Positions 9,090-26,393 of a stretch of DNA of 36,107 nt are shown in pieces. The stretch covers positions 1 to 36,107 of the forward strand of contig JAAZOP010000212.1 of assembly GCA_012797735.1 (NCBI GenBank), in the 5' to 3' direction. Below the pieces are notes generated by a model. The model was not told where the DNA came from. It was given only the letters and a program-made list of their open reading frames with translations, and made no database searches. The position numbers and the translations under genes are program-made. Each line of letters begins with the position of its first letter. The first letter of the stretch is position 1. The stretch is from Myxococcales bacterium (lineage in GTDB: Bacteria; Myxococcota_A; Polyangia; DRWM01; JAAZOP01).

Positions 9090-9452
9090 ATGGTCGCGAA
9101 GTCGCTGAGCGAGGTTGCCGAGGCGTTGGGCGCGCGGGTCGTCACCCGCGGGTCCGGCCTGGCGGTGGAGATCGACCGGGTCTACGCCGGCGACCGCATC
9201 AGCGACCTGCTCGAGCGTTCCTCGCCGCGCACGCTGGTGGTGACGAACCTCGCGAGTCGACCGTTGTTGCGGCTGGCGGACCTGATGGATGTGCCGGCGA
9301 TCTGTTTCGTGGACGGAAAGGAGCCCGAAGCGGAGGTGATCGCGGCGGCGCAGGCGCGCGGCACGGTGTTGCTCGTCTCGCCCGTCGGGGTCTCCGAGAC
9401 CTGCGGGCGGCTGTCTCGGCTGTTGGGGGAGGGGGAAGGCGGCCGGTCGTGA
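9090..9452 (+). CDS. DRTGG-domain protein, first copy
   Basis: A 120-residue soluble protein that is essentially one DRTGG-like domain: the GDRISDLLERS opening, the hydrophobic strand TLVVTNLASRPLLRLADL, then VPAICFVDGKEPEAEVIAAAQARGTVLLVS. DRTGG domains are found between CBS and DHH or phosphotransacetylase domains and are thought to bind a small ligand. Stand-alone copies occur, as I recall, beside NAD-linked [FeFe]-hydrogenases, where their job is not established. The ATG at 9090 follows a GGAGCCGGTGGAGG stretch. It is the first gene after the sigma54 promoter, and its stop overlaps the GTG of the next gene (GTGA), implying coupled translation. A second, diverged copy lies at 11011. Confidence 0.8.
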   Translation: MVAKSLSEVAEALGARVVTRGSGLAVEIDRVYAGDRISDLLERSSPRTLVVTNLASRPLLRLADLMDVPAICFVDGKEPEAEVIAAAQARGTVLLVSPVGVSETCGRLSRLLGEGEGGRS

Positions 9453-11014
9453 CCGTTGCGGAGTGGCCGTTGGTCGGCGGCGTCTACGACGACGTGGGGC
9501 GTGCCACCCGCGCTTTGAAAGAGCATCTCAAGCGGCTGGGGGTCGACGTCGGGGCGATTCGTCGTGCGTTGATTGCCGCGTATGAGGCCGAGGCCAACGT
9601 GGTGATCCACGCGCGGCGCGGGACGATGCGCTGCTACTTCGGGCCGGGGCAGCTCGACGTCGAGGTGGAGGACGAGGGTCCCGGGATTCCGGACATCGAT
9701 CTGGCGTTGCGCGAGGGCTTCTCGACGGCTCCGCTTGCCGCCCGGGAGCTGGGGTTCGGGGCGGGGATGGGGTTGCCGAGCATCCGGCGCAACAGCGATC
9801 GGTTCTCGCTGCAGTCCACGGTGGGGCGTGGCACTCGGGTCGCGTTCAGCGTGCGCTATCGGCCCCAGGAGGGCGGCGTCGTCGTCGGACATTCGGTCGC
9901 GGTCGAGGCGGCGCGCTGCCAGCGCTGTCGCCGCTGCGTGCGCGCCTGTCCCGTGCAGGCCGTCCGGTTGCGCGATTCCGGCCCTTCGATCCTCGAGCAC
10001 CTGTGCATCGACTGTGCGGCCTGTCTGGCCGTCTGTCCGACGGGGGCGCTGGGCTTGCGGGGGCGGTCGGACGCTCCGGCCGTGGACGGCGGGACGCTCG
10101 TCGTTCCCGATGCGCTGCTGGTGCAGTTCGGCGCTGCGGTCCGACCCGCCGACGCGCTCGCCGCGCTGGAACGGCTCGGCCACCGTGACGTCCGCACGCT
10201 CGAGCCGTGGGAGCGTGGCCTGCGGGCCGCCGCCGCGGAGCGGGCGCGCGCGAACAGTGGACCCCGACCCGTGATCGCGCCGTTCTGCCCGGCGGTGTTG
10301 AACCTGGTCGCATCGCGGTTTCCCGGCCTGCTCGCGCAGGTGGCGCCCTTCCTCACCCCGCTCGAAGCCGCGCGTCGCGCGCTCCAGACGCGGCCCGCGG
10401 CGTTCGTCACGCTCTGCCCCGCGCAGCGATCGTCCCTGACTTCGACCACCGGCCCGGGGGCCGCCGAGCTGGTCGCGCCGACCAGCCTGCTGCGGGAGAT
10501 GCTGGGGGTGTTGGTCGGACGGCCGCGTCCGACGGTGGACGAGGCCGCATCGCCGGTCGCGGCGCCGACCACCGCCCCCGCGGTGCTTGTCGCGACCGGC
10601 CTGCGCCACGTCCTGCGCGTTCTCGACGAGGCGGAGAACGGGGCGCTCGGCGACGTGCTGCTGCTCGAACTCTGGGCCTGCGACGGCGGATGCTTCGGTT
10701 CGCCGCTGCTGCGGGAGGATCCGGCCATCGCCGGACACCGGGCGCGCACCTGGTCGGTCGGCGACGGGCCGGTCGCGCCCGCCGAGCCGCTGGCAGTGGA
10801 ACGACAGGTTCGTCGCGGCGTGCGTCTGGACCCGGATCTCTCCCGCGCCGTCCAGTTGCTCGGAGAGATCGACCGGCTGGCGCGGGCGCTGCCCGGCCGT
10901 GACTGCGCCGACTGTGGGGCACCGACCTGCCAGGCGCTGGCGGAAGACGTTGTGCTCGGGCGCGCGATGCTCGCCGCATGCCCGCACCGTCCCGTCGAGG
11001 AGGAATTGCGATGA
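9449..11014 (+). CDS. RsbW-like kinase fused to ferredoxin and degenerate [FeFe]-hydrogenase domain
   Basis: 521 residues with four modules. (1) About 1-140: an anti-sigma/RsbW-type HATPase with N-box EAEANVVIHA (Asn50), DEGPGI at 75-80 and GFGAGMGLP at 102-110. (2) Two [4Fe-4S] ferredoxin motifs, Cys157/160/163/167 and Cys186/189/192/196. (3) About 215-430: a domain with the layout of the hydrogenase H-cluster domain but altered motifs: FCPAV (Cys280) for L1, LCPAQ (Cys323) for L2, ACDGGCFG (Cys411/415) for L3. The four cysteines that would hold the cubane are kept; the extra L1 Cys, the L2 Lys and the GGGQP tail are lost. (4) A CxxCxxxxC iron-sulfur motif (Cys486/489/494, probably Cys511). 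I infer an iron-sulfur redox sensor controlling a Ser/Thr-type kinase, without hydrogenase activity. It overlaps both neighbours by four bases. No sigma factor or STAS partner is in the window. Confidence 0.85.
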   Translation: MTVAEWPLVGGVYDDVGRATRALKEHLKRLGVDVGAIRRALIAAYEAEANVVIHARRGTMRCYFGPGQLDVEVEDEGPGIPDIDLALREGFSTAPLAARELGFGAGMGLPSIRRNSDRFSLQSTVGRGTRVAFSVRYRPQEGGVVVGHSVAVEAARCQRCRRCVRACPVQAVRLRDSGPSILEHLCIDCAACLAVCPTGALGLRGRSDAPAVDGGTLVVPDALLVQFGAAVRPADALAALERLGHRDVRTLEPWERGLRAAAAERARANSGPRPVIAPFCPAVLNLVASRFPGLLAQVAPFLTPLEAARRALQTRPAAFVTLCPAQRSSLTSTTGPGAAELVAPTSLLREMLGVLVGRPRPTVDEAASPVAAPTTAPAVLVATGLRHVLRVLDEAENGALGDVLLLELWACDGGCFGSPLLREDPAIAGHRARTWSVGDGPVAPAEPLAVERQVRRGVRLDPDLSRAVQLLGEIDRLARALPGRDCADCGAPTCQALAEDVVLGRAMLAACPHRPVEEELR

Positions 11015-11364
11015 GACTCGACGAACTGGCTCGGTCGCTGGACTTGCGCCTGTTGACGCCGGAGCTGGCCGATGCGGGTTCCGCCGAAGTCGTCGCGGGG
11101 CACGTCTCGGACATGCTGTCGGATGTATTGGCCAACGCTCCGCCGGGCGGCGTGCTGGTCACGATCCAGGTGCACCTCAACGTGATCGCCGTCGCCGTCC
11201 ACGCGGGATTGGCCGGTGTGATCTTTGCGGCCGGGCGCACGCCCGAGGATGCGGTGCGACAGCGGGCCGTGGAACAGCAGTTGCCGCTGTACGTATCGGA
11301 CGCTTCGGCGTTCGACGTGGTGGGTCGGCTGTGGAGCCTGGGTGTGAAGGGGCGGAATGCGTGA
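11011..11364 (+). CDS. DRTGG-domain protein, second copy
   Basis: A 117-residue single-domain protein. It has GHVSDMLSDVLANAPPGGVLVT, then NVIAVAVHAGLAGVIFAAGRTPEDAV, then EQQLPLYVSDASAFDVVGRLW, the same order of elements as the protein at 9090 but closer to the usual DRTGG form. I chose the ATG at 11011 because GAGGAGG precedes it and it overlaps the previous stop (ATGA); an in-frame ATG at 10978 lies inside the preceding gene and has no reason to be used. The two copies flank the RsbW-hydrogenase fusion. A ligand-binding or partner-switching role is inference; there is no catalytic motif. Confidence 0.8.
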   Translation: MRLDELARSLDLRLLTPELADAGSAEVVAGHVSDMLSDVLANAPPGGVLVTIQVHLNVIAVAVHAGLAGVIFAAGRTPEDAVRQRAVEQQLPLYVSDASAFDVVGRLWSLGVKGRNA

Positions 11365-12092
11365 GGCTCTTCGACGCCGACCTGCACGTTCACACCGCGC
11401 TCTCGCCGTGCGGCGCGGACGAGATGACGCCGCCGGCGATCGTCCGGGAGGCGCGTCGACGGGGTCTGGCGATGCTGGCGATCTGCGACCACAACAGCGC
11501 CCGCAACGTCCCGGCGGTCCGGGCGGCCGCCGGCGGGGATCCGGTGGTGCTGGCCGGCATCGAGGTTACGACGGCCGAGGAGATCCACGTGCTGGGGCTG
11601 TTTGGCGACGACGAGGCCGCGCTGGCGACGGGCGAGGCGGTGGGGGCCACCTTGCCGCTGGCGGGCGTCGCCTCCCGGCGGCACTACGGGGCGCAGACGG
11701 TGTGCGATGCCGAGGGTCGTGCGGTGGACGAGGAACGGCGTCTGCTCGCGGCAGCCTCGGGTTTCCCGCTCGGGGCGGCGGTCGAGCTGATCCGGCGGCA
11801 CGGGGGGCTGGTCGTGGCCTGCCACCTCGACCGGCCATCGTTCAGCGTGTTCTCGCAGCTCGGGCTGTGGCCGGCCGACGTGAGGTTCGACGCGATCGAG
11901 ATCTCCGCGGCCGATGCCGCGCCGCCCTGGCGCGAGGCCGTGCGCGCTCTGCCGCACCCCGTGTTGCGGGGCTCGGACGCGCACTGCCTCGACGAACTGG
12001 GCGCCTGCCGGAGCCGCTTGCGGCTCGCGGCGCCGGGCTTCTCCGAGTTCGCGCTGGCGCTGCGGGGCGCCGGCGGACGGGGGGTCGCCTGA
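11361..12092 (+). CDS. PHP-domain metal-dependent phosphoesterase
   Basis: 243 residues of the PHP superfamily (histidinol-phosphatase/polymerase type TIM-like barrel). Metal ligands are visible in order: DLHVHTALSPCG near the N-terminus, AICDHNS, GIEVTTAEEIHVLGLF, VVACHLDRPSF and GSDAHCLDELG. These suggest an intact multi-metal phosphoesterase. Substrates of this group vary (histidinol phosphate, 5' ends of nucleotides, phosphonucleosides), so none is assigned. The GTG start at 11361 overlaps the previous stop (GTGA) and the stop overlaps the next ATG, placing it inside the coupled regulatory module. It might remove a phosphate or a nucleotide signal made or sensed by its neighbours; that is speculation from context. 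Confidence 0.88.
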   Translation: MRLFDADLHVHTALSPCGADEMTPPAIVREARRRGLAMLAICDHNSARNVPAVRAAAGGDPVVLAGIEVTTAEEIHVLGLFGDDEAALATGEAVGATLPLAGVASRRHYGAQTVCDAEGRAVDEERRLLAAASGFPLGAAVELIRRHGGLVVACHLDRPSFSVFSQLGLWPADVRFDAIEISAADAAPPWREAVRALPHPVLRGSDAHCLDELGACRSRLRLAAPGFSEFALALRGAGGRGVA

Positions 12093-12637
12093 TGCAGGAG
12101 CTGTCCCTTCATCTGTTGGACCTGCTCGAGAACGCCGTGCGCGCCGGCGCGCGAACGATCCTGGTGTCGATCGACGAGGACCCGGCTCGCGACCGGCTGG
12201 TGCTGAGCGTGGAGGACGACGGGTCCGGCTTCCCCGAGCCGGCGGAGCGGGTGCTCGATCCGTTCTTCACGACGAAGGAAGGCAAGCGCACCGGACTCGG
12301 ACTGAGCCTGTTGCGGACCGCGGCGGAGCAGGCCGGCGGCGGCCTGAGGCTCGGCCGTTCGTCGCTCGGCGGCGCGCTCGTCGTCGCCGAACTGCGGCTC
12401 GGGCACGTCGACCGGATGCCGCTCGGCGACCTGCCGGGCACGTTGTTCGCCATGGCCTGCACGCACCCGGAGCTGGTCCTGCAGTGCCGGGTTCGGTCGG
12501 CGGCCGGAGAACGACGGGCGGTTTCATGGGAAGCCGGCGAAGACGGGTCGGATGCGGCGCGCGGCGGGTGGGTCGCCGCGCGGCGGTTCGCGGAACGGGT
12601 GCGCGAGGATCTGCGGGAATTGCAGGTGACTGCGTAG
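12092..12637 (+). CDS. Stand-alone HATPase (histidine-kinase-like ATP-binding) protein
   Basis: 181 residues. The GHKL ATP-binding fold is clear: N-box DLLENAVRAGA, G1 box DDGSGF, F-box DPFFTTKEGKRTGLGLSLL. There is no dimerisation/phospho-acceptor HisKA domain, so it cannot be a complete histidine kinase by itself. The C-terminal third (HVDRMPLGDLPGTLFAMACTHPELVLQC) is not kinase-like and looks like a dedicated extension. The ATG overlaps the TGA of the PHP gene. It could phosphorylate a partner, as RsbW-type proteins do, or act as an ATP-dependent switch. It is distinct from the HATPase at the start of the 9449 fusion, so the module holds two different GHKL proteins. 27 bases separate it from the first hydrogenase structural gene. 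Confidence 0.85.
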   Translation: MQELSLHLLDLLENAVRAGARTILVSIDEDPARDRLVLSVEDDGSGFPEPAERVLDPFFTTKEGKRTGLGLSLLRTAAEQAGGGLRLGRSSLGGALVVAELRLGHVDRMPLGDLPGTLFAMACTHPELVLQCRVRSAAGERRAVSWEAGEDGSDAARGGWVAARRFAERVREDLRELQVTA

Positions 12638-12664: not shown

Positions 12665-13192
12665 ATGGAGAGCGGATGCTGCAGCTGCGAGAAGGGCCGG
12701 GAGCCGACGGAACAGGAGCTCCTCGCCCGGTTGGACGAGGTGCTCGACGACTATGCGGGCAAGGCCGGGGCCCTGATCCCCGTGCTGCAAATCGCCCAGG
12801 GGCTGTTCGGCTACCTCCCCGAGACGGCGCTCAAGCGCATCGCCGAGCGACTCGGCAAGTCGTACAGCGAGGTGGCGGGCGTCGTGGGGTTCTACTCGTT
12901 CTTCACCACCGTGCCGCGCGGCCGGCACCTGATCCGCGTCTGCCTCGGCACGGCCTGCTACGTCCGCGGCGGCAAGCAGGTGCTCGACACGTTCAAGAGC
13001 GAACTCAAGATCGATGTCGGCGAGACCACCCCGGACCGGCTGTTCACGCTCGAGGTCGCGCGCTGCTTCGGCGCCTGCGGCCTCGCTCCGGCGATCATGA
13101 TCGATGAGGACGTGCACCACCGCGTGAAGCCGGTGAAGGTGCGCGAACTCCTCGCACCGTATCGGGCGGATGCCAAGGCCGAAGTGGCCTAG
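12665..13192 (+). CDS. hndA: NAD(P)-linked [FeFe]-hydrogenase subunit HndA/HydC (NuoE-like)
   Basis: A 175-residue thioredoxin-like [2Fe-2S] protein homologous to the 24-kDa subunit NuoE of complex I. It has the N-terminal helical region with IPVLQIAQGLFGYLPE and VAGVVGFYSFFTTVPRG, and the four cluster cysteines in CLGTACYVRGG and EVARCFGACGLAP. In HydABC/HndABCD enzymes this subunit contacts the flavoprotein and takes part in electron transfer between NAD(P)H, ferredoxin and H2. An additional CCSC stretch at residues 5-8 is not typical of NuoE. GGAGGAG precedes the ATG. It begins the structural part of the island in the order hndA-hndB-hndC-hndD. Confidence 0.95.
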   Translation: MESGCCSCEKGREPTEQELLARLDEVLDDYAGKAGALIPVLQIAQGLFGYLPETALKRIAERLGKSYSEVAGVVGFYSFFTTVPRGRHLIRVCLGTACYVRGGKQVLDTFKSELKIDVGETTPDRLFTLEVARCFGACGLAPAIMIDEDVHHRVKPVKVRELLAPYRADAKAEVA

Positions 13193-13202
13193 GGAGGCGA
13201 CA

Positions 13203-13574
13203 ATGGGCGACAAGATCCAGAGCGTGGCCGAGTTGAAGGCGCTGGCCGCCAAGGCGCGCGAGGAACTCGAGATCCGCGGCGCTCCGAAGGCGACCGTGAT
13301 CAATGTCCACATGGGCACCTGCGGCATCGCCGCCGGCGCCCGAGACGTGCTGGCCTGCCTGGCGGCGGAACTGGAGGCGGCGGGCGTCCGGGATGTGACC
13401 CTGCGCCAGTCCGGCTGTGCGGGCCTCTGCAGTCAGGAACCGATGCTGACGTTGACCGACAAGAACGGAACGCAGTTCCGCTACGGCAAGCTCGACAGCG
13501 CGCGCGTGCGCGAGATCGTCCGCGAGCACGTGGTCGGCGGCACCGCGGTCGCCAATTACCTGATCCGCCTGTAG
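13203..13574 (+). CDS. hndB: HndB-type [2Fe-2S] thioredoxin-like ferredoxin subunit
   Basis: A 123-residue thioredoxin-like [2Fe-2S] ferredoxin. Cluster ligands lie in HMGTCGIAAGA and SGCAGLCSQEP. Size, fold and position between the NuoE-like and NuoF-like genes match HndB of the Desulfovibrio NADP-reducing hydrogenase. In three-subunit HydABC enzymes this domain is present only as part of the flavoprotein subunit; here both the separate HndB and an N-terminal copy in HndC exist. AGGGAGG precedes the ATG at 13203. Confidence 0.92.
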   Translation: MGDKIQSVAELKALAAKAREELEIRGAPKATVINVHMGTCGIAAGARDVLACLAAELEAAGVRDVTLRQSGCAGLCSQEPMLTLTDKNGTQFRYGKLDSARVREIVREHVVGGTAVANYLIRL

Positions 13575-13593: not shown

Positions 13594-16500
13594 ATGGACA
13601 AGGTACGAAGCCACTTCCTCGTCTGCGCCGGCGGCGGCTGCGTCGCCTCCGGTGCGCTGGAGTTCGCTGCCGCCCTTCGCAGCGCCATCGACAAGCAAGG
13701 GCTGGCGGAGGAGATCAAGGTCGTCGAGACGGGCTGCCTCGGCCCCTGCGCGGCCGGACCCGTCGCCGTGGTCTATCCCGACGGCACGTTCTACCAGAAG
13801 CTGAAGGCCGCCGACGCCGCCGAGATCGTCGAGCAGCATCTGCTCAAGGGACGACCCGTCGAACGGCTGCTCTACAAGAAGCCCGCCGGCGACGAGGCCG
13901 TCCCGGCGCTGGGCAAGCTCTCGTTCTTCAAGGACCAGGTGAAGATCGTCCTGCGGAACTGCGGCCTGATCGACCCCACGCGCATCGAGGAGTACCTGGC
14001 GCGGGACGGCTACCTGGCCCTGGCCAAGGCGTTGACCGAGATGACGCCCGAGCAGGTGATCGAGGAGGTCAAGAAGTCCGGCATCCGGGGACGCGGCGGA
14101 GCCGGCTTCCCCACCGGCCTGAAGTGGGCGTTCGCCCGCAAGGCCCAGGGACCCAGGAAGTACGTGCTGTGCAACGCGGACGAGGGCGATCCCGGCGCCT
14201 TCATGGACCGCAGCGTCCTGGAGGGCGACCCGCACAGCGTGATCGAGGCGATGGCGATTGCCGCCTACGCCGTAGGCGCGGCCCAGGGGTTCGTCTACGT
14301 CCGTGCCGAATACCCGCTGGCGGTCAAGCGGCTGGGCATCGCGATCGATCAGGCCCGCCAGCGCGGCCTGCTCGGCGCGAAGATCCTCGGCACAGACTTC
14401 TCCTTCGACCTGGAGATCCGCATGGGCTCCGGCGCCTTCGTCTGCGGCGAGGAGACCGCGCTGATGACTTCCATCGAGGGCAACCGGGGCGAACCCCGTC
14501 CACGACCTCCATTTCCGGCCGTCAAGGGCCTGTGGGGCATGCCCTCCTTGCTGAACAACGTCGAGACGTACGCCGCGATCCCGATGATCATCCTCAAGGG
14601 CGGCGACTGGTACGCCTCCTACGGCACCGAGAAGAGCAAGGGTACCAAGGTCTTCGCCCTCGCCGGCGCGGTGAACAACACCGGCCTGGTCGAGGTGCCG
14701 ATCGGCATGTCGCTGGGCGAGATCGTCTACGACGTGGGCGGCGGGATCCCGGGCGGCAAGAAGTTCAAGGCCGCCCAGGTCGGCGGCCCCTCCGGCGGGT
14801 GCATCCCCCGCGAGCACCTGAACGTCCCGATGGACTACGAGACCCTGCAGGAACTCGGCGCGATCATGGGCTCGGGCGGGCTGATCGTCATGGACGAGGA
14901 CGCCTGCATGGTCGATGTCGCCCGCTTCTTCCTCGAGTTCGTCCAGGACGAATCGTGCGGCAAGTGCGTCCCCTGCCGGATCGGCACGAAGCGGATGCTG
15001 GAGATCCTCGAGCGCATCTGCCGCGGCGAGGGCGTCGAGGGGGACGTCGAGCGTCTGGTCGCGCTCGGCAACCGGATCAAGGACACCGCGCTATGCGGCC
15101 TCGGTCAGAGCGCCCCCAACCCCGTGCTGTCCACGATCCGGCACTTCCGTCACGAGTACGACGCGCACATCCGCGCCAAGCGCTGCGTCGCGGGCGTCTG
15201 TCCCGAACTCGTCCGCGCTCCCTGCCAGAACGCCTGCCCGGCCGGCGTCGATGTCCCGGGCTACGTGTCGCTGACCGGCGAGAAGCGCTATGCGGAGGCG
15301 CTGCGGTTGCACCGCGAGCGCAACCCGCTGACGGCCGTCTGCGCCCGCGTCTGCTTCCACACCTGCGAGGACAAGTGCCGCCGCTCCACCCTCGACGCCC
15401 CGGTCTCGATTCGCGGAGTCAAGCGCTACCTCGCCGACCAGGAGGTGACCGTCCAGCTGCCCGAGGTGCGCGACAACCCGGAGAACGCGGCACGGAAGAT
15501 CGCCGTCATCGGGGCGGGTCCGGCCGGCCTTTCCTGCGCCTACTTCCTGGCCCGTCTCGGATACCGGCCGACGGTCTTCGAGGCCGAGCCGAAGCCCGGC
15601 GGGATGCTGGTCCAGGCGATTCCGGCCTACCGACTGCCCCGCGAGATCGTCGAACGCGAGGTGCGGATGATCGAGCGGCTGGGGGTGGACATCCAGACGG
15701 GCCAGCGGCTGGGGCGCGACTTCACCCTGCCCGGCCTCCGCCAGCAGGGCTACGAGGCGGTGTTCCTCGGCGTCGGCGCCCCGAAGGGGGCGCGCCTCGG
15801 CATCCCCGGCGAGCAGGCCGAGGGGGTGGCCGAGGCGTTGACGTTCCTCAAGCGCTACAACCTCGGCGGCGCGGGCCGCGTCGGCGGGCGGGTGGTCGTG
15901 ATCGGCGGCGGCAACGCCGCGATCGATGCCGCCCGCACCGCCCTGCGCCTCGGTGCCGACACCGTCACCGTGCTCTACCGCCGCACCCGCGGGGAGATGC
16001 CGGCCTACGGCGAGGAGATCGAGGAGGCCGAGCGTGAGGGTGTCACGATCCGCGAGCTGGTGGCCCCCGAGGAGATCCTCGTGCGCGACGGCAAGGTCGC
16101 CGGCGTGCGGAGCCGCAAGATGGTCCTGGGCCCCTACGACCGCAGCGGCCGGCGACGCCCGCAACCCGCCGAGGAGGCGCCCTTCGTCGTCGAGGCCGAT
16201 CAGGTCATTGCCGCCATCGGCCAGGTGCTCGAGCCGTCGGAGTTCGTGGACGGCCTGGGCCTGAAGCTGACCCGTCAGGGCTACGTCGAGGCCGACCCGC
16301 TCACCGGTGCGACCTCGATTCCGTGGCTGTTCGCCGGCGGCGACGCCGCCGTCGGACCGTCCTCGGTGGCCGAGGCGGTGGGGGCGGGCGAGCGGGCGGC
16401 GGTCGGCATCGATCGATTCCTGACCGGGGAAATGCATGCCTTCTGGCGCGCCGAGGCGCCCGCCGCGGTGCCCTTCGATCCGAACGCGGATCCCGCGCCG

Positions 16501-16641
16501 TTCCCGCGTGCGCCGATGCGCATGCTTCCCGTGGAGCGGCGCAAGGGGACATTCCAGGAGGTCGAGCTGACGTTCACGGAGGGTGCGGCATTGCAGGAGG
16601 CGAGGCGTTGCCTGCGCTGCGACTACCGCGAATGCAAGTGA
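13594..16641 (+). CDS. hndC: HndC/HydB flavoprotein (NuoF-like) fused to a GltD/NfnB-like NADPH oxidoreductase
   Basis: 1015 residues, about 400 longer than ordinary HndC. Domains: thioredoxin-like [2Fe-2S] (1-90, CAGGGC ... CLGPC); NuoF core with FMN/NAD(P)H motifs GRGGAGFPTGLKW and CNADEGDPGAFMDR; [4Fe-4S] ligands CGKCVPC from Cys455 plus Cys501 in TALCGLG. HndC normally continues into a 2[4Fe-4S] ferredoxin tail. Here, right after KRCVAGVCPE, the chain enters a GltD-type module: CQNACPAGVDVPGYV from Cys544, CARVCFHTCEDKC, FAD motif IAVIGAGPAGLSCAY near 636, NADPH motif VVVIGGGNAAIDAA near 767, and AIGQVLEP with the terminal FAD motif FAGGDAAVGPSSV. The second flavin site may add an NADPH route, as in NfnAB-type bifurcation. 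GGGAGGC precedes the ATG. The C-terminal CLRCDYREC could be a further metal site. Confidence 0.95.
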   Translation: MDKVRSHFLVCAGGGCVASGALEFAAALRSAIDKQGLAEEIKVVETGCLGPCAAGPVAVVYPDGTFYQKLKAADAAEIVEQHLLKGRPVERLLYKKPAGDEAVPALGKLSFFKDQVKIVLRNCGLIDPTRIEEYLARDGYLALAKALTEMTPEQVIEEVKKSGIRGRGGAGFPTGLKWAFARKAQGPRKYVLCNADEGDPGAFMDRSVLEGDPHSVIEAMAIAAYAVGAAQGFVYVRAEYPLAVKRLGIAIDQARQRGLLGAKILGTDFSFDLEIRMGSGAFVCGEETALMTSIEGNRGEPRPRPPFPAVKGLWGMPSLLNNVETYAAIPMIILKGGDWYASYGTEKSKGTKVFALAGAVNNTGLVEVPIGMSLGEIVYDVGGGIPGGKKFKAAQVGGPSGGCIPREHLNVPMDYETLQELGAIMGSGGLIVMDEDACMVDVARFFLEFVQDESCGKCVPCRIGTKRMLEILERICRGEGVEGDVERLVALGNRIKDTALCGLGQSAPNPVLSTIRHFRHEYDAHIRAKRCVAGVCPELVRAPCQNACPAGVDVPGYVSLTGEKRYAEALRLHRERNPLTAVCARVCFHTCEDKCRRSTLDAPVSIRGVKRYLADQEVTVQLPEVRDNPENAARKIAVIGAGPAGLSCAYFLARLGYRPTVFEAEPKPGGMLVQAIPAYRLPREIVEREVRMIERLGVDIQTGQRLGRDFTLPGLRQQGYEAVFLGVGAPKGARLGIPGEQAEGVAEALTFLKRYNLGGAGRVGGRVVVIGGGNAAIDAARTALRLGADTVTVLYRRTRGEMPAYGEEIEEAEREGVTIRELVAPEEILVRDGKVAGVRSRKMVLGPYDRSGRRRPQPAEEAPFVVEADQVIAAIGQVLEPSEFVDGLGLKLTRQGYVEADPLTGATSIPWLFAGGDAAVGPSSVAEAVGAGERAAVGIDRFLTGEMHAFWRAEAPAAVPFDPNADPAPFPRAPMRMLPVERRKGTFQEVELTFTEGAALQEARRCLRCDYRECK

Positions 16642-16659: not shown

Positions 16660-18432
16660 ATGGCGAAGCTCACGATTGACGGAATCCCGATCGAGGTCCC
16701 CGATGGAACCACCGTGCTCGAGGCCGCCCGGCGGGCCGGTCGCCGCATCCCGACCCTCTGCTACCTCGAGAACGTCCAGGCGATCGGCGCCTGCCGGGTC
16801 TGCACCGTCGAGGTCGAGGGGGCCCGCACGTTGGTCGCCTCCTGCGTCACGCCGGTGGCCGACGGCATGAAGGTGAGGACGAATACCCGTCGCGTCCGAG
16901 AGGCGCGCCAACTGGTGGTCGACCTGCTGCTCTCGGATCATGCCGGCGACTGCCAGACCTGCGTGCGGGGGGACGACTGCGAACTGCAGGCGTTGGCCCG
17001 CGAGCTGGGTGTGCGCCAGGTGACCTACGCCGGAGAGAAGAGCCGCAAGTACCTGGACCAGTCGACGCCGGCCCTGGTGCGCGACAGTTCGAAGTGCGTG
17101 CTGTGCCGGCGTTGCATCACCGTCTGCAACGAGGTCCAGGGCGTCGCCGCGCTGTGGCCGCAGTTTCGCGGTTTCAAGTGCGTGATGGCGCCGGCCTTCG
17201 GGCATGACCTGGAGGAGGTGGTCTGCGTCCAGTGCGGCCAGTGCGGCGCGGTCTGTCCCGTCGGGGCGATCGTCGAGCGCGATCAGATCGACGAGGTCTG
17301 GGCCGCGCTCGACGACCCCCGGAAGCACGTGGTCGTCCAGACCGCCCCCGCGATCCGCGCGGCGCTCGGGGAGTGTTTCGACATGCCCCCGGGCACGCTC
17401 GTCACCGGCAAGATGACGGCTGCGCTGCGCCGTCTCGGCTTCGACGCCGTCTTCGACACCAACTTCACCGCCGACATGACGATCATGGAGGAGGGCACCG
17501 AGCTGCTCACCCGCCTCAAGCGGGCGCTCGTTGATCGGCAGTCCGTGGCGCTCCCGATGTTCACCAGTTGCTCCCCCGGCTGGATCAAGTTCATGGAGCA
17601 CTACTACCCCGACATGGTCGATAACCTCTCGACCTGCAAGTCGCCCCAGCAGATGTTCGGCGCGCTGGCCAAGACCTACTACGCGCAGAAGATCGGCAAG
17701 CGTCCGGAGGACCTGTTCGTCGTGTCGGTCATGCCCTGCACGGCCAAGAAGTACGAGGCGCAGCGCCCGGAGATGAACGGCAGCGGCGTGCGCGATGTCG
17801 ACGTCGTGCTGACGACGCGCGAACTGGGGCGGATGATCCGGCAGGCCGGCATCGACTTCGCGGCGCTGCCCGACGAGGAGATGGACGCGCCGCTCGGGCT
17901 GTCGTCCGGCGCCGCCGACATCTTCGCCAACACCGGCGGCGTGATGGAAGCTGCGCTGCGGACGGCCTGGGAACTCGTCACCGGGCGTCCGTTGCCTTTC
18001 GACAAGCTGCACGTCCAGCCGGTCATGGGCCTCGAGGGGGTCAAGGAGGCCGGCATCACCGTCACCGGCGCGAAACCCGAGTGGTCGTTCCTGGAAGGGG
18101 TCGAGATGAAGGTCGCCGTGGCCCACGGCCTCGGCAACGCCCGCCGGATCATCGAGCGTGTCCGGGCCGGCGAGGCGAGCTACCACTTCATCGAGGTGAT
18201 GACCTGCCCGGGCGGCTGCATCGGAGGCGGCGGCCAACCCCGGTTCACCACCGACGAGGTCCGCCGGGCCCGCATCGCCGCGATCTACAAGGAGGACGAG
18301 GGGAAGAAGCTGCGCAAGTCCCACGAGAACCCGCAGGTCGCGCAGCTCTACGCCGAGTTCCTCGGCGCCCCGCTGGGCGAGAAGTCGCATCACCTGCTCC
18401 ACACGCACTACGAACGCCGGAGCCGCGTCTAG
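16660..18432 (+). CDS. hndD: [FeFe]-hydrogenase catalytic subunit HndD/HydA
   Basis: 590 residues; reversibly interconverts protons and H2 at the H-cluster. The N-terminal [2Fe-2S] domain has CYLENVQAIGACRVC and a later Cys. Next comes the His-Cys [4Fe-4S] motif HAGDCQTCVRGDDC, then 2[4Fe-4S] motifs CVLCRRCITVC and CVQCGQCGAVC. The H-cluster domain carries L1 TSCSPGW (Cys304, Ser305), L2 MPCTAKKYE (Cys360) and L3 EVMTCPGGCIGGGGQP (Cys516, Cys520). The C-terminal small-subunit-like helix region (KLRKSHENPQVAQLY ... HHLLHTHY) is fused, as in HndD. L1 has Ser where many hydrogenases have a second Cys; I recall this form in NAD(P)-linked enzymes, so activity is still expected. Loss of a separate membrane or Tat signal places it in the cytoplasm. 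The genes for its three maturases lie downstream in the same direction. Confidence 0.97.
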   Translation: MAKLTIDGIPIEVPDGTTVLEAARRAGRRIPTLCYLENVQAIGACRVCTVEVEGARTLVASCVTPVADGMKVRTNTRRVREARQLVVDLLLSDHAGDCQTCVRGDDCELQALARELGVRQVTYAGEKSRKYLDQSTPALVRDSSKCVLCRRCITVCNEVQGVAALWPQFRGFKCVMAPAFGHDLEEVVCVQCGQCGAVCPVGAIVERDQIDEVWAALDDPRKHVVVQTAPAIRAALGECFDMPPGTLVTGKMTAALRRLGFDAVFDTNFTADMTIMEEGTELLTRLKRALVDRQSVALPMFTSCSPGWIKFMEHYYPDMVDNLSTCKSPQQMFGALAKTYYAQKIGKRPEDLFVVSVMPCTAKKYEAQRPEMNGSGVRDVDVVLTTRELGRMIRQAGIDFAALPDEEMDAPLGLSSGAADIFANTGGVMEAALRTAWELVTGRPLPFDKLHVQPVMGLEGVKEAGITVTGAKPEWSFLEGVEMKVAVAHGLGNARRIIERVRAGEASYHFIEVMTCPGGCIGGGGQPRFTTDEVRRARIAAIYKEDEGKKLRKSHENPQVAQLYAEFLGAPLGEKSHHLLHTHYERRSRV

Positions 18433-18445
18433 GAAGGACGTTCGG

Positions 18446-20506
18446 ATGACTGCGTGCATCGACCCGGACGACGCGCCCCTGCCCCTCGGCCAGAACGTCG
18501 TCGCCACGATTCCCGAGCGGTGCCGGCGTTGCTACACCTGCGTGCGCGAGTGCCCGGCCAAGGCGATCCGAGTCGAGAACGGGCAGGCCACCGTGCTCCA
18601 GGAGCGCTGCATCGCTTGCGGCAACTGCGTCCGCGTCTGCGCCCAGCAAGCCAAGCGGATCGTCGATTGCGTGCCGCGGGTCGAACGCATGCTCGCCGAT
18701 CGAGAGACGCCGACGTTCGCCTGCCTCGCGCCGTCGTTCCCGGCCGCGTTTCATCCGACACGGCCCGGAAAGCTGGTCGCCGCGATCCGCGCGTTGGGCT
18801 TCGCCGAGGTCTGGGAGGTCGCGCTCGGCGCCGAACTGGTCGGTCGGGCCTACTCCCGGTTGGCCGAGAGGTCCGCGGCGAGCGCCACGCAACTCATCTC
18901 GTCGGCCTGCCCCGCCCTGGTCTCGTTCGTCCAGAAGCACATGCCGTCGCTGCTCGGCACGCTGGCTCCCATCGTCTCTCCGATGATTGCCACCGCGCGC
19001 GCGATCCGCAAGCGCCGGGGGGCCGGCGTCCGCGTGGTCTTCATCGGCCCCTGCATCGCCAAGAAGAACGAATTCCGCGACCCGCTGGTCAACGGCGAGG
19101 TCGACGCCGTACTGACCTTCGAGGAGCTGCGACGGATGCTGTTCCGCGCCGGGATCGTGCCGGAACACATGACGGAGACGTTCTTCGACAGTCCGCGCTG
19201 CGACCTCGGCCGGTCCTTTCCGCTGTCCGGCGGTCTGCTCAAGACCGCCGGACTGCGGGCGGACATCCTCGAGAACGACATCGTCGTCACCGAGGGCAAG
19301 GACCGCGTTCTCGGCGCCCTCGAAGCGGTGGCCAACGGCTCCAGCGACGCGCGGCTGTTCGACATCCTGTTCTGCGAAGGATGCATCAACGGCCCCCTCA
19401 TGCCCCAGGGGCTGAGTCCGTTCATGCGCAAGGAGGTGGTCGCCGCCTTCGTCACCGAACTCGGGCGCCGCACGACCCAGCGGGAGGTGGTGGAGGCGAT
19501 CGCCGAGTTCGACGACCTGGATCTGAGTCGGACCTTCCAGAGTCAGGTGGTGGTGCTGCCGCAGCCCTCGGAGGTGCAGATCGCCGCGGCGCTGCGGCGG
19601 ATGAAGAAGGGGACTCCCGAGGACCGCCTGGACTGCGGGGCCTGCGGCTACCCCACCTGCCGGGAGAAGGCGATCGCGGTCTGCCAGGGCCTGGCGGAAC
19701 CCGAGATGTGCCTGCCGTACCTCGTCGACGAGTTGCAGGCCGTGATCCACCAGTTGCGGGTGTCCCACGACGAACTGGCCTCCGCCCAGCAGCGCCTCGT
19801 CCACTCCGAGAAGCTGGCCTCGATGGGACAGCTCTCCGCCGGCGTCGCCCACGAGATCAACAACCCGCTCGGCGTCGTCCTGCTCTACTCCCACATCCTG
19901 GCCAAGCAGCTCCCGGAGGGCGATCCCCGGCGCTCGGACATCGATGTGATCGTGCGGGAGGCGACGCGGTGCCGCAACATCGTCCGCGGCCTGCTCGACT
20001 TCGCCCGCCAGTCCCGCGTGCAGAAGACTCCCACCGACACCGCACAGCTGTTCCAGGAGGTGGCCGGGATCCTGCAGCCGCGGCTGGAAGGCCGACCGGT
20101 CCGGTTCGTGATGGAAGTCGAGCCGGGTCTGCCGGTGATGCTGGTCGATGCCACGCAGATCAAGCAGATGCTGGTCAACTTGCTGGAGAACGGCCTCGAC
20201 GCCATCCAGGGCGCGGGCGAGTTGCGGCTGTGCGCCCGCTGTATCCAGGACGGCAGGACGCTGGAAATCAAAGTCACGGACAGCGGCTGCGGCATCCCCG
20301 CGGAAAACCTGCCCAAGCTCTTCACCCCGTTCTTCACGACGAAGGAGGCGGGCAAGGGCACCGGTCTTGGTCTCGCGATCGCCTACGGGGTGGTCAAAAT
20401 GCACTGCGGGGACATCACCGCGGACAGCGAGGTGGGGCGCGGCACGACGTTCCGGATCACCCTGCCGATCGAGCAGCCGGTGACCGAAGCCGTCGCGGCG
20501 CCCTGA
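18446..20506 (+). CDS. Hydrogenase-derived sensor histidine kinase (group D-like H-domain + HK)
   Basis: 686 residues. Two [4Fe-4S] motifs (Cys26/29/32/36 and Cys55/58/61/65) are followed by an H-cluster-type domain: L1 SSACPALV (Cys155), L2 GPCIAKKNE (Cys203, with the Lys and Glu kept), L3 FCEGCINGP (Cys310, Cys313). L3 has CxxC rather than the CxxxC of catalytic hydrogenases, and L1 lacks the proton-relay Cys. Then comes a CxxC...C iron-sulfur motif ([10 protein letters not shown] from 397), a coiled linker, HisKA with His469 ([15 protein letters not shown]) and HATPase ([27 protein letters not shown]). This is the architecture of putative sensory [FeFe]-hydrogenases. It should report H2 or redox state to a receiver, most simply the one at 20532. 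No membrane segment, so cytoplasmic. AGGAAGGA precedes the ATG. Confidence 0.93.
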
Positions 20507-22454: not shown

Positions 22455-23564
22455 ATGGGACCCGGGACGGCAGACGACGGAACCACCGGCGACGGGGCGC
22501 TCGGACGACCCGAGCTGCTCGCCGCGTTGCGCGAGGAGGACCCCGAGCGCCAGGAAGCCTTGCGACGCCGGGCGGAAGCCGTTCGGACCGCCTGCGTCGG
22601 CGAAGCCGTTCATCTACGGGCGTTGATCGAAGTCTCCAACCACTGCATCCGCCGTTGCACCTACTGCGGGCTCCGCGCGCCCAACCGGCGCCTGGCGCGC
22701 TACCGCCTGTCGATGAACGAGGTGCTCGACGCGGCGCGGTCGGCGGCAAGCCTGGGTCTCGGTACGGTGGTCATCCAGGCCGGCGAGGACCCCGCCCTGA
22801 CCGAGAGATGGGTCGCCGAACTGGTGCGCCGGCTGAAGGGGGAAACCGGCCTGGCGGTGACGCTGAGCCTCGGCGCGCGGACGCCGGCGGAGTTGCGGGC
22901 CTGGCGGCGGGCGGGCGCCGATCGATACCTGCTGCGGTTCGAGACGTCGAATCGCGCCCTGTTCCGGCACGTGCATCCCGACGCTCCGGGCTGGGGTGCG
23001 GACCGTCTTGACCTGCTGCGCGTCCTGCGGGACCTGGACTACGAAGTCGGTTCCGGCGTGATCGTCGGGCTTCCCGGGCAGACCTGGAACGATCTCGTCA
23101 CCGACCTCGAGACGTTTCGCCGCCTCGACCTCGACATGATCGGCGTCGGCCCGTACCTCGCGCACCCCGACACCCCTCTCGGCCGAAGCGCCGGGTGCGC
23201 GCCGCCCGGCACGGGGCAGGTGCCGCCCAGCGAGACCGTGACCGGTCGCGTCGTGGCGCTGACCCGCCTGCTGTGTCCGCGGTCGAACATCCCCGCCACC
23301 ACCGCCGTCGAGACGTTGGCGCCGGGTCGGGGTTACGAATGCGCGCTGTCCTTCGGCGCCAACGTCCTGATGCCCTGCTTCACTCCCGCGACCCAGGCCG
23401 CCCGGTATGAAACCTACCCGGGCCACAACGAACGCCTCGTCTCTTCGGCCCAGGCCGTCGCGGACGCCCGGCGTCGCATCGCCGCGCTCGGCCGTGTCGT
23501 GGGCACCGGGGACGGGATGTCCCCGAACGTCGTCCGGCGGCGCGCAGTCGGAGGTGCGGCATGA
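22455..23564 (+). CDS. hydE: [FeFe]-hydrogenase H-cluster maturase HydE (radical SAM)
   Basis: 369 residues. The radical SAM motif CIRRCTYC begins at Cys64 and is followed by GLRAPN, typical of HydE. Other family features are VIQAGEDP, the SLGARTPAELRAWRRAGADRYLLRFETS region, GVIVGLPGQTW, GVGPYLAHPDTPL and NIPATTAVETL. HydE works with HydG and HydF on the diiron subcluster of the H-cluster, acting on the HydG product on the way to the azadithiolate bridge. The optional C-terminal auxiliary cluster is not evident. The ATG at 22455 comes 29 bases after the hybrid kinase stop, with a weak Shine-Dalgarno (AAAGGCGAG). It is the first of the three maturase genes in the order E-F-G. Confidence 0.95.
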   Translation: MGPGTADDGTTGDGALGRPELLAALREEDPERQEALRRRAEAVRTACVGEAVHLRALIEVSNHCIRRCTYCGLRAPNRRLARYRLSMNEVLDAARSAASLGLGTVVIQAGEDPALTERWVAELVRRLKGETGLAVTLSLGARTPAELRAWRRAGADRYLLRFETSNRALFRHVHPDAPGWGADRLDLLRVLRDLDYEVGSGVIVGLPGQTWNDLVTDLETFRRLDLDMIGVGPYLAHPDTPLGRSAGCAPPGTGQVPPSETVTGRVVALTRLLCPRSNIPATTAVETLAPGRGYECALSFGANVLMPCFTPATQAARYETYPGHNERLVSSAQAVADARRRIAALGRVVGTGDGMSPNVVRRRAVGGAA

Positions 23565-23706: not shown

Positions 23707-24969
23707 ATGAACCGGACACCGAAAGGCATGCGCTGGCAGATCGGCTTCTTCGGCCGCCGCAACGTCGGCAAGTCTTCGTTGTTGAACGCCTTGACGCGGC
23801 AGCGGGTGTCGATCGTCTCCGATGTCGCCGGCACCACGACGGACCCGGTGGAGAAGCCGATGGAACTGCTCCCGATCGGCCCCGTGCTGCTGATCGACAC
23901 CGCCGGGATCGATGACGTGGGCGCGCTCGGCGCGCAACGCGTCGAGCGCACGAGGCGGATCTTCGATCGTGTCGACCTTGGCATCGTGGTGGCGGCCGGA
24001 TCGGAGTGGGGCGAATACGAGGATCAAATCCTCTCGGAACTGGTGTCGCGCGGGACGCCGGCCATCGTCGTGTTCAACAAGTCCGACCTGGGTGAGCCCC
24101 GCAGGGCCGTCCTCGAAAAGCTGGCCGGCCTCGGCGTGCCCCACATTCGGACCGTGGCCTCCCGGGACGAAGGCCTGCTCGATCTGCGCGAGGCGTTGAT
24201 TCGCGCGGCGCCCGACGAGTTGATCAACGCTCCGGCCATCGTCGGCGACCTCGTGCCGCCGGGCGAATTGGCGCTGCTGGTCGTGCCGATCGACCTCGAG
24301 GCGCCCAAGGGCCGCCTGATCCTCCCGCAGGTGCAGGCCATCCGGGACCTGCTGGATCACGAGGCGGGGTGTCTCGTCGTCAAGGAGAGCGGCCTGCGTG
24401 ATGCGCTGGCTCGTCTGCGCCGGCCGCCGGCCCTGGTCGTCACGGACTCCCAGGCGTTCCGCAAGGTCGCCGCCGAGACGCCGCAGGAGGTGCCGCTGAC
24501 GTCCTTCTCCATCCTCTTCGCCCGGTTCAAGGGGGACCTGTCGGACCTGGTCCTCGGAACGATCGGCATCGAACGACTGCGCCCGGGGGACAAGGTCCTG
24601 GTGGCGGAGGCGTGCACGCACCATCCGATCGGCGACGACATCGGGCGGGTGAAGATCCCGGGCTGGTTGAACGGGCGCGTCGGCGGTGCGCTGGAGTTCG
24701 TTCACGTGCAGGGTCACGACTTCCCGGAGGATCTCGCCCCGTATCGCCTGGTGGTGCACTGCGGAGCATGCGTCGCCAACCGCCGCGAGGTGTTGTCCCG
24801 TCTCGTCCGGTGCCGGCGAGCGGGCGTGCCGATGACCAACTACGGCCTCGCCATCGCCTGGTCGCTCGGGATCTTCGAGCGGGCGTTGGCCCCGTTCCCC
24901 TCGGCGGTCCGGGTGTTTCGTCAGGCCAGGGGGGACGCGGCCGATGGCGCGCAGGAGGCGCGAACATGA
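23707..24969 (+). CDS. hydF: H-cluster maturation GTPase and scaffold HydF
   Basis: 420 residues. The Era/TrmE-type GTPase domain comes first with P-loop GRRNVGKSS at 16-24, G2 Thr in VAGTTTDPV, G3 DTAGID and G4 NKSD. It continues into the dimerisation and cluster-binding domains. Iron-sulfur ligands are the HydF signature Cys303-x-His305 (CTHHPIGDD) and His351-Cys352-x-x-Cys355 (HCGACVANRRE). HydF carries the diiron precursor made by HydG/HydE and loads it into HydA. I chose ATG 23707, which has GGGGAGGGG upstream; longer in-frame starts lie inside hydE and give no HydF-like sequence. The 142 bases between hydE and hydF hold no other gene. The stop overlaps the hydG ATG. Confidence 0.96.
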   Translation: MNRTPKGMRWQIGFFGRRNVGKSSLLNALTRQRVSIVSDVAGTTTDPVEKPMELLPIGPVLLIDTAGIDDVGALGAQRVERTRRIFDRVDLGIVVAAGSEWGEYEDQILSELVSRGTPAIVVFNKSDLGEPRRAVLEKLAGLGVPHIRTVASRDEGLLDLREALIRAAPDELINAPAIVGDLVPPGELALLVVPIDLEAPKGRLILPQVQAIRDLLDHEAGCLVVKESGLRDALARLRRPPALVVTDSQAFRKVAAETPQEVPLTSFSILFARFKGDLSDLVLGTIGIERLRPGDKVLVAEACTHHPIGDDIGRVKIPGWLNGRVGGALEFVHVQGHDFPEDLAPYRLVVHCGACVANRREVLSRLVRCRRAGVPMTNYGLAIAWSLGIFERALAPFPSAVRVFRQARGDAADGAQEART

Positions 24970-26393
24970 GCGATGCACAAGCCGGTCCCCCGGAGCGTTC
25001 GGCCAGTCCGGATGCGGATATCGTCAACGAGGCGGAGATCTGGCGCGTTCTCGAAGGGGCGCGAGGGCACGACGCGGCGCGCGTTCGAGAAGTGTTGGCG
25101 CGCGCCCGCGAACTTCGAGGACTCGAGGCTCCCGACGTGGCCGTGTTGGCCGGCGTGTCCGACCCCGAGTTGATCCACGAGATGTTCGTCGCGGCGCGCG
25201 AGGTCAAGGAGCGCATCTACGGCCGTCGTCTCGTGCTGTTCGCGCCGTTGTACATCTCCAACCTGTGCAGCAACGAGTGTCTCTACTGCGCGTTCCGCGC
25301 CCGGAACGTCGCCGTCCGGCGACGCGCCTTGAACCAGGATGAGATTGCGCGCGAGACCCGACTGCTCGTCGAGCAGGGTCACAAGCGGATCCTGCTCGTC
25401 GCCGGCGAAGCCTATCCGTCCGAAGGCTTCGCCTATGTGCGCAAGGCGATCGACACGGTCTACTCCGTTCGGAGCGGGCGAGGCGAAATTCGCCGGGTCA
25501 ACGTCAACGTCGCCCCCCTCACTGTGGAAGAGTTCCGGGAGCTCAAGGCCGCCGGCATCGGCACCTTCCAGCTGTTCCAGGAAACCTACCACCACGGCAC
25601 CTACGCCCGCGTGCATGTGGGCGGCAAGAAGCGCGACTACGACTGGCGCTTGGGCGCGATGGATCGCGCGATACAGGCCGGGATCGACGACGTCGGCATC
25701 GGCGTGTTGTTCGGTCTCTTCGATTGGCGCTTCGAACTGCTCGCCCTGCTGCAGCACGTCCGGCATCTCGAGCGGCGTTTCGGCGTCGGTCCCCACACGG
25801 TCAGTGTGCCGCGCCTGGAGCCTGCCGTCGGGTCGGACATGGCGGCCCATCCGCCGCAACCCGTGTCGGACGTGGAGTTCCGGCGAATCGTCGCGATCCT
25901 GCGCCTGGCCGTGCCCTACACCGGCATCATCCTGTCGACCCGCGAGAACCCCAACCTTCGCCGCGAGACCTTCGCCCTCGGCGTGTCGCAGATCTCCGGC
26001 GGTTCGAGGACCAACCCGGGTGGCTATGCGCAGGGCGAAGAAGACGAGGAAGCCCAGTTCTCCGTCGGCGATCACCGATCGCTCGACGACGTGGTTCGGG
26101 ACGTCGCGGCGCTCGGCTACATCCCGTCCTTCTGCACCGCCTGCTATCGCCTCGGTCGCACCGGCCAGGAATTCATGGAACTGGCCAAGCCGGGCGAGAT
26201 CAAGCGGCACTGCGACCCGAATGCGATCGTCACCTTCCAGGAGTACCTGCTGGACTACGCCTCGCCCGCCACGCGCGAGGTGGGCCGACGCACGATCGAA
26301 CAGGCTCTCAACGAATTGCCCGAACCGCTGCGGAGCGCGACCCGCCGGATGGTGGAGCGGGTCGAACAAGGCGAGCGGGACGTGTTCTGTTGA
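24966..26393 (+). CDS. hydG: H-cluster maturase HydG (tyrosine lyase, radical SAM)
   Basis: 475 residues. HydG cleaves tyrosine to give CO and CN- for the H-cluster diiron site. The radical SAM motif CSNECLYC starts at Cys101 followed by AFRARN. The ThiH-like core is clear (FQETYHHGTYARVH, DVGIGVLFGLFDWRFE, SVPRLEPAVGS, STRENPNLRR, GVSQISGGSRTNPGGY). The second cluster that builds the Fe(CO)2(CN) synthon is bound by a C-terminal motif CTACYRLGRTG with Cys390/Cys393 and, 22 residues later, Cys416 in KRHC, exactly the HydG spacing. The gene overlaps hydF by four bases (ATGA). All three maturases are complete, so the HndD enzyme can in principle be activated from this island alone. Confidence 0.97.
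   Translation: MSDAQAGPPERSASPDADIVNEAEIWRVLEGARGHDAARVREVLARARELRGLEAPDVAVLAGVSDPELIHEMFVAAREVKERIYGRRLVLFAPLYISNLCSNECLYCAFRARNVAVRRRALNQDEIARETRLLVEQGHKRILLVAGEAYPSEGFAYVRKAIDTVYSVRSGRGEIRRVNVNVAPLTVEEFRELKAAGIGTFQLFQETYHHGTYARVHVGGKKRDYDWRLGAMDRAIQAGIDDVGIGVLFGLFDWRFELLALLQHVRHLERRFGVGPHTVSVPRLEPAVGSDMAAHPPQPVSDVEFRRIVAILRLAVPYTGIILSTRENPNLRRETFALGVSQISGGSRTNPGGYAQGEEDEEAQFSVGDHRSLDDVVRDVAALGYIPSFCTACYRLGRTGQEFMELAKPGEIKRHCDPNAIVTFQEYLLDYASPATREVGRRTIEQALNELPEPLRSATRRMVERVEQGERDVFC

Follow-up and report, generated by a model that had tools for sequence, protein, structure and literature searches.

The closest described relatives of the protein analyzed here are the Group D (M2e) putative sensory [FeFe]-hydrogenases, represented by TamHydS of Thermoanaerobacter mathranii and by Cthe_0335, Athe_1292 and Teth39_1463, whose genes lie beside a HATPase gene and a bifurcating hydrogenase. 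The definition of Group D includes a C-terminal Cx2Cx4Cx16C motif (PMC8163306), and further marks of the group have been described (PMC10407848). TamHydS is active although it is without nearly all of the proton-path residues of group A enzymes (PMC8163306); its own proton path comprises E252, E289, S249 and D265 (PMC10407848). The C-terminal cluster of TamHydS is not reduced by H2, and the 2026 paper that reported this gave evidence against the cluster as a redox switch and called it critical to find the partner through which Group D sensory hydrogenases signal (PMC13104023). A HATPase_c domain was described in 2024 on the "group C1" [FeFe]-hydrogenases of Hydrogenedentota, which have hardly recognisable P1-P3 motifs and often adjoin a group A3 hydrogenase; as far as described the architecture is the same as that found here, and the main text of that paper is without a mechanism, an account of cysteine conservation, an Rnf link or a tie to Group D (PMC11406978). 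The ATPase part is related to the switch kinases SpoIIAB, RsbW and RsbT, which have a STAS partner.

The window analyzed, the whole 36,107 nucleotides of contig JAAZOP010000212.1 from a Myxococcales bacterium (GCA_012797735.1), contains a locus of the Group D kind with a HATPase and a bifurcating hydrogenase, in which an ATPase forms the N-terminus of the hydrogenase-like protein itself. The features are:

9090..9452, + strand, DRTGG-type protein a, below the Pfam cut-off; homologues in other genomes form part of ATPase fusions
9449..11014, + strand, fusion gene (521 aa): SpoIIAB/RsbW-type HATPase, 2x[4Fe-4S] ferredoxin, M2e/Group D-like H-domain and C-terminal FeS motif
9449..9868, + strand, HATPase_c_2 domain of the fusion (residues 1-140)
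9893..10066, + strand, two-cluster ferredoxin domain (residues 149-206)
10067..10828, + strand, [FeFe]-hydrogenase-like H-domain (residues 207-460; K358 equivalent is Q326)
10889..10987, + strand, C-terminal FeS motif Cx2Cx4Cx16C, PF04060 (C486, C489, C494, C511)
11011..11364, + strand, DRTGG-type protein b, below the Pfam cut-off
11361..12092, + strand, PHP-family phosphoesterase
12092..12637, + strand, stand-alone HATPase_c protein without a HisKA domain
12665..13192, + strand, NuoE/HydC-type thioredoxin-like [2Fe-2S] subunit
13170..13574, + strand, second thioredoxin-like [2Fe-2S] protein, just below cut-off (true start probably inside the listed ORF)
13594..16641, + strand, HydB/NuoF-type subunit with a C-terminal GltD-like NAD(P)-binding domain
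16660..18432, + strand, catalytic HydA, group A6 NADH-dependent [FeFe]-hydrogenase, above the curated cut-off
18446..20506, + strand, second sensor: HydS-like ferredoxin, H-domain, FeS and histidine kinase
22455..23564, + strand, HydE maturase, just below the curated cut-off
23707..24969, + strand, HydF maturase
25014..26384, + strand, HydG maturase

The five genes from 9090 to 12637 overlap successively by 4, 4, 4 and 1 nt. A search for sigma-54 promoters gave 27 matches where 27 were expected, and a search for sigma-70 promoters found none.

The fusion gene starts with GTG and runs as a single open frame. The domain order proposed in the initial annotation was reproduced by Pfam matches above the cut-off, namely HATPase_c_2 (residues 15-133, 7.9e-11), the dicluster ferredoxin Fer4_9 (residues 156-200), two stretches of Fe_hyd_lg_C, the better of which covers residues 227-314 (7.7e-8), and FeS PF04060 (residues 481-513, 1.6e-9). 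The four cubane cysteines of the H-domain (C280, C323, C411 and C415, with C415 the bridging one) were found at the positions given there; the eight ferredoxin cysteines are residues 157, 160, 163, 167, 186, 189, 192 and 196, and the final motif is C486-x2-C489-x4-C494-x16-C511. A full-length AlphaFold model built with 116 alignment rows had a pLDDT of 92.6 and a pTM of 0.90, and in Foldseek searches its N-terminus resembled SpoIIAB (TM 0.80-0.85 of target; best 1tid, TM 0.85, rmsd 2.0) and the remainder matched [FeFe]-hydrogenases (8zqd, E 7e-11). The hydrogenase-like fold earlier proposed for residues 215-430 was also recovered from residues 206-470 alone, whose profile retrieved HydA chains from the PDB (E 1.7e-26), and from the H-domain modelled by itself (pLDDT 88.6), for which hydrogenases were the top Foldseek matches with a query TM of about 0.5-0.63, values consistent with a shortened, altered domain. 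The residues of the ATP site (Y45, E46, E48, N50, H54, D75, G77, G79 and the GFGAGMGL motif) were invariant in the roughly 65 relatives that cover them, and both the fold and these residues are shared with the SpoIIAB/RsbW/RsbT kinases.

A scan of GTDB genomes detected at least 500 relatives of the fusion protein. The best 80 of the 500 comprised 13 single open reading frames and 67 pairs of neighbouring genes, as expected from the earlier statement that the two halves are usually separate genes; the 13-to-67 ratio is no estimate of abundance, since tblastn retrieval prefers matches that continue in one frame. The same bias removes the weight of the finding that 59 of the 67 split pairs were in the same frame. 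Among these 80, fused relatives came from Hydrogenedentota (four MAGs), Planctomycetota (mostly Phycisphaerae), one member of the Spirochaetales (Spirochaetota) and one actinobacterial MAG (Actinomycetota), and the split versions mostly from Clostridia, Synergistota and Bacteroidales. The fused architecture is thus found beyond Hydrogenedentota, and the window's own genome encodes Myxococcota-type repeat proteins, with cysteine-rich repeats of the myxobacterial type at 28639-30096. The 284 genomes of the host phylum contained no other full-length single match and two-gene versions in G002, G211 and G138. The 13 other single-ORF proteins, 42-50% identical to the window protein over the full length, aligned without gaps across the join at residues 136-149, and an assembly error at this point, the possibility that the initial annotation had raised for the join at 140-155, was rejected on the strength of these homologues from several phyla. 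When a tree was built from the C-terminal part, all 14 fused proteins fell on one side of a fully supported branch.

The initial annotation had missed the kinship with Group D. The split partner proteins carry the marks of Group D/M2e, that is, two N-terminal clusters, the Cx2Cx4Cx16C motif, Ser or Thr at the position of CpI M353 (66 of 70) and often Ala at the C299 position (34 of 70). One split relative (L062) matched the published TamHydS positions E122, A137, C138, S249, E252, D265 and E289 at a constant offset of +1, and C20 and C379 at an offset of 0. With its two ferredoxin motifs (C157-C196) and the C-terminal motif at exact spacing, the fusion protein probably belongs, by its sequence, to the TamHydS type of putative sensory [FeFe]-hydrogenase (Group D, M2e) or close to it, and we infer that group C1 and Group D are one branch. 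TamHydS performs H2 chemistry and is encoded apart from any ATPase, whereas the window protein has an ATPase on its N-terminus, Q in place of K358, and neither the E252 segment nor D265.

Conservation was compared in 84 homologues, 14 fused and 70 encoded by two genes. Fifteen of the 16 cysteines were invariant, including the four cubane cysteines (84/84, hence 14/14 fused) and the C-terminal Cx2Cx4Cx16C motif (84/84), a pattern that is evidently not due to chance. The variable one was C160, which one split sequence and five fused ones from Phycisphaerae do not have; in the latter (L037, L038, L043, L046 and L069) Ser or Ala stands at the equivalent position, and the first cluster may be altered in these proteins.

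The active site of the fused clade differed from that of the split family. The lysine of the PCxxK motif (CpI K358) was replaced by Q in 14 of 14 fused proteins (Q326 in the window protein), whereas K was present in 66 of 70 split ones (K or R in 68 of 70). The hydroxyl residue at the M353 position was found in 1 of 14 fused proteins, the single keeper being the window protein (T321), vs. 66 of 70; the W..GG(E) segment with E252 in 1 of 14, a chance match, vs. 65 of 70; and D265 in 0 of 14 vs. 50 of 70. The E289 equivalent was retained in 13 of 14 fused proteins (E407 in the window protein). The fused clade is missing the segment with S249 and E252 as well as D265, so that of the Group D proton path (E252, E289, S249 and D265 in TamHydS numbering) the window protein has E289 only, and for this reason it is, as judged from its active-site residues, related to or derived from Group D and not a full member. 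Because the cysteines were kept while residues of the di-iron pocket were lost, the comparison suggests that the H-domain of the fused clade became a cubane-only redox domain. The loss of active-site features claimed in the initial annotation therefore held, for residues that are conserved within Group D. An argument from the missing proton-path cysteine and group A extras was rejected as the sole ground for calling the domain degraded, since TamHydS also lacks these and is active (PMC8163306), and for that reason the split family served as the comparison.

The genes around the fusion form a conserved module. The order DRTGG, HATPase, M2e, DRTGG, PHP, HATPase recurred across loci, with NuoE, HydB and HydA downstream in most; the stand-alone HATPase_c protein without HisKA (12092-12637 in the window) was a near-constant member. 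Invariant residues were D35, S38 and D39 in DRTGG protein a (78/78) and D34 and S37 in DRTGG protein b (77/77), and the DxHxH, DHN and SDxH motifs, E68, H76 and H155 of the PHP phosphoesterase were conserved in 74-77 of 77. Among classifiable loci, the module led into hydrogenase genes in 49 and into rnfC in 15 (L048, L053, L058, L067, L083, L088, L089, L091, L096, L099, L101 and L104-L107). At the latter loci the module directly precedes rnfC, and the order rnfCDGEAB was seen where the contig was long enough; RnfC, D, G, A and B were confirmed. The residue at TamHydS position 252 was Gln in 15 of 15 Rnf-linked M2e proteins vs. Glu in 35 of 38 hydrogenase-linked split proteins, an association that falls essentially into one clade of the tree and may reflect a single event. 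No HydG above the cut-off was detected in 6 of the 15 Rnf-linked genomes; nearly all have a catalytic HydA, and assembly gaps are an equally likely explanation. The hydrogenase and Rnf have ferredoxin and NAD pools in common, not H2, and the Rnf-linked loci suggest that the signal is the ferredoxin/NAD redox poise rather than H2 itself.

In two relatives (L047:9590-10396 and L109:9455-10396) the ATPase carries an N-terminal DRTGG domain in the same protein, and the family profile indicated weaker cases in L111:5538-6479 and L007:1090-1908, where DRTGG is below the Pfam cut-off. These fusions show the DRTGG protein to be the predicted physical partner of the ATPase and, taken with the ATPase-M2e fusion, delineate a physical chain of DRTGG, ATPase and FeS domains, each link occurring in different proteins. 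The host genome, which is 99.85% complete, contained no match to STAS (PF01740) or STAS_2 (PF13466) at E 0.001, with positive controls, and DRTGG proteins hold the position of the STAS partner in the window. Classical RsbW/RsbV partner switching is therefore unlikely in the host. The initial annotation had likened the protein to a Ser/Thr-type partner-switching kinase, with the DRTGG proteins as candidate substrates. That reading is supported in part: the fusions speak for DRTGG as a physical partner, and DRTGG may also be the phospho-acceptor of a putative Ser/Thr kinase. Related stand-alone ATPases elsewhere adjoin protoglobin-STAS proteins or carry CBS domains. One close ATPase relative, in a genome of the host's class (L009:985-1914), has two CBS domains, and no hydrogenase-like gene was matched nearby.

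The joining of a HATPase to a hydrogenase is not unprecedented, having been published for Hydrogenedentota group C1 (PMC11406978). New are the loss of Group D active-site features in a clade that kept every cubane cysteine, the same gene set before rnfCDGEAB at 15 loci with E252 changed to Q in all, the DRTGG-ATPase fusions with the chain that they imply, and a host genome with no detectable STAS protein. The two natural fusions, M2e-ATPase and ATPase-DRTGG, name probable signalling partners of Group D sensory hydrogenases, and the fusion protein offers a single-chain construct for testing the signalling link.

These features led us to a model, to which we give an even chance, in which the fusion protein is a single-chain, redox-gated switch ATPase, probably a protein kinase, that controls the neighbouring ferredoxin/NAD hydrogenase; redox gating, phosphotransfer and output would all be parts of the model rather than observations. 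The C-terminal part would be a Group D/M2e "sensory hydrogenase" module whose H2-activating di-iron chemistry was probably lost in the fused clade, and this part would retain as many as four [4Fe-4S] clusters. Electrons would come from the ferredoxin pool or the adjacent hydrogenase and enter through the two ferredoxin clusters. Whether the H-domain cubane or the C-terminal cluster is oxidised or reduced would alter the conformation and so gate the attached GHKL ATPase. The ATPase would work with the flanking DRTGG proteins, which would stand in for the STAS protein of RsbW/RsbT systems; the PHP phosphoesterase may undo a phosphorylation, and the output would set how much of the adjacent bifurcating hydrogenase is made or how active it is, with Rnf as the target at rnf-linked loci. 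Several points count against this redox-switch model. The part of the C-terminal cluster as a switch is weakened by the TamHydS cluster that H2 does not reduce (PMC13104023), the DRTGG proteins of the window are below the Pfam cut-off although their relatives pass it, GHKL domains can also serve as chaperones or adaptors, and the C160 ligand is absent from the ferredoxin domain of five fused relatives. A broader proposal, which we hold tentatively and with the chances somewhat against it, is that Group D modules serve basically to control ferredoxin/NAD-linked complexes according to redox state and not to sense H2, that they signal via a physically attached SpoIIAB-type ATPase with DRTGG replacing STAS, and that the H2 chemistry was dismantled and the clusters kept in two branches, the ATPase-fused one and the Rnf-linked one with E252 changed to Q. 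If redox poise is indeed the signal, surveys of hydrogen metabolism would have to annotate and count these "hydrogenases" differently.

The fused protein might instead sense H2, binding a complete H-cluster as TamHydS does, with binding or turnover of H2 gating the ATPase. In keeping with such a sensor, TamHydS, the characterized Group D protein, is active with almost none of the group A proton-path residues (PMC8163306), the window has genes for HydE, HydF and HydG, and the four cubane cysteines, including bridging C415, and E407 are retained. The Gln that replaces K358 might also still form a hydrogen bond with a cyanide ligand, so that an H-cluster may be present. We nevertheless consider an H2 sensor unlikely, given the K358-to-Q replacement in every fused protein against K in 66 of 70 split ones, the mostly lost M353-position hydroxyl, the absent W..GGE segment with E252, the replaced D265, and the report of Hydrogenedentota C1 enzymes without recognisable P1-P3 motifs (PMC11406978).

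Two other explanations do not require a kinase. The ATPase could be an adaptor or anti-sigma-like switch whose binding to a DRTGG protein, or to some other target, depends on ATP and redox state and involves no phosphotransfer; the DRTGG-ATPase fusions suggest a stable complex and the host has no detected STAS substrate, but the domain has the complete set of SpoIIAB-type catalytic-site residues and almost all loci include a nearby PHP phosphoesterase whose motif residues are conserved, and we judge this reading improbable to about the same degree as the H2 sensor. We think it very improbable that the module uses ATP to assemble or repair the neighbouring FMN/FeS enzyme, HydABC or Rnf, or to inject low-potential electrons into it, in which case the ATPase would be a GHKL chaperone or supply the energy. 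Linkage of the module to two complexes with common NuoF/RnfC-like FMN-FeS chemistry and the absence of a DNA-binding or sigma partner from inside the module would fit that function, but the known SpoIIAB-type ATPases act in signalling, the protoglobin-STAS neighbours and CBS domains of related stand-alone ATPases are typical of signalling, and DRTGG and PHP proteins are not known as assembly factors.

Other proteins with an H-domain resemble the fusion in part. Nar1/NARF hydrogenase-like proteins presumably do so in having the H-domain fold and the cubane cysteines without an H2 function; they have a role in eukaryotic FeS assembly and no ATPase domain. Group C (M2f) TmHydS and the HydS-like histidine kinase of the window (18446-20506) have the same ferredoxin, H-domain and C-terminal FeS input as the fusion protein, whereas their output is PAS or histidine kinase and that of the fusion protein a SpoIIAB-type ATPase. 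The L3 motif of this second sensor is FCEGC (CxxC) where CxxxC is usual, and its H-cluster site looks altered too.
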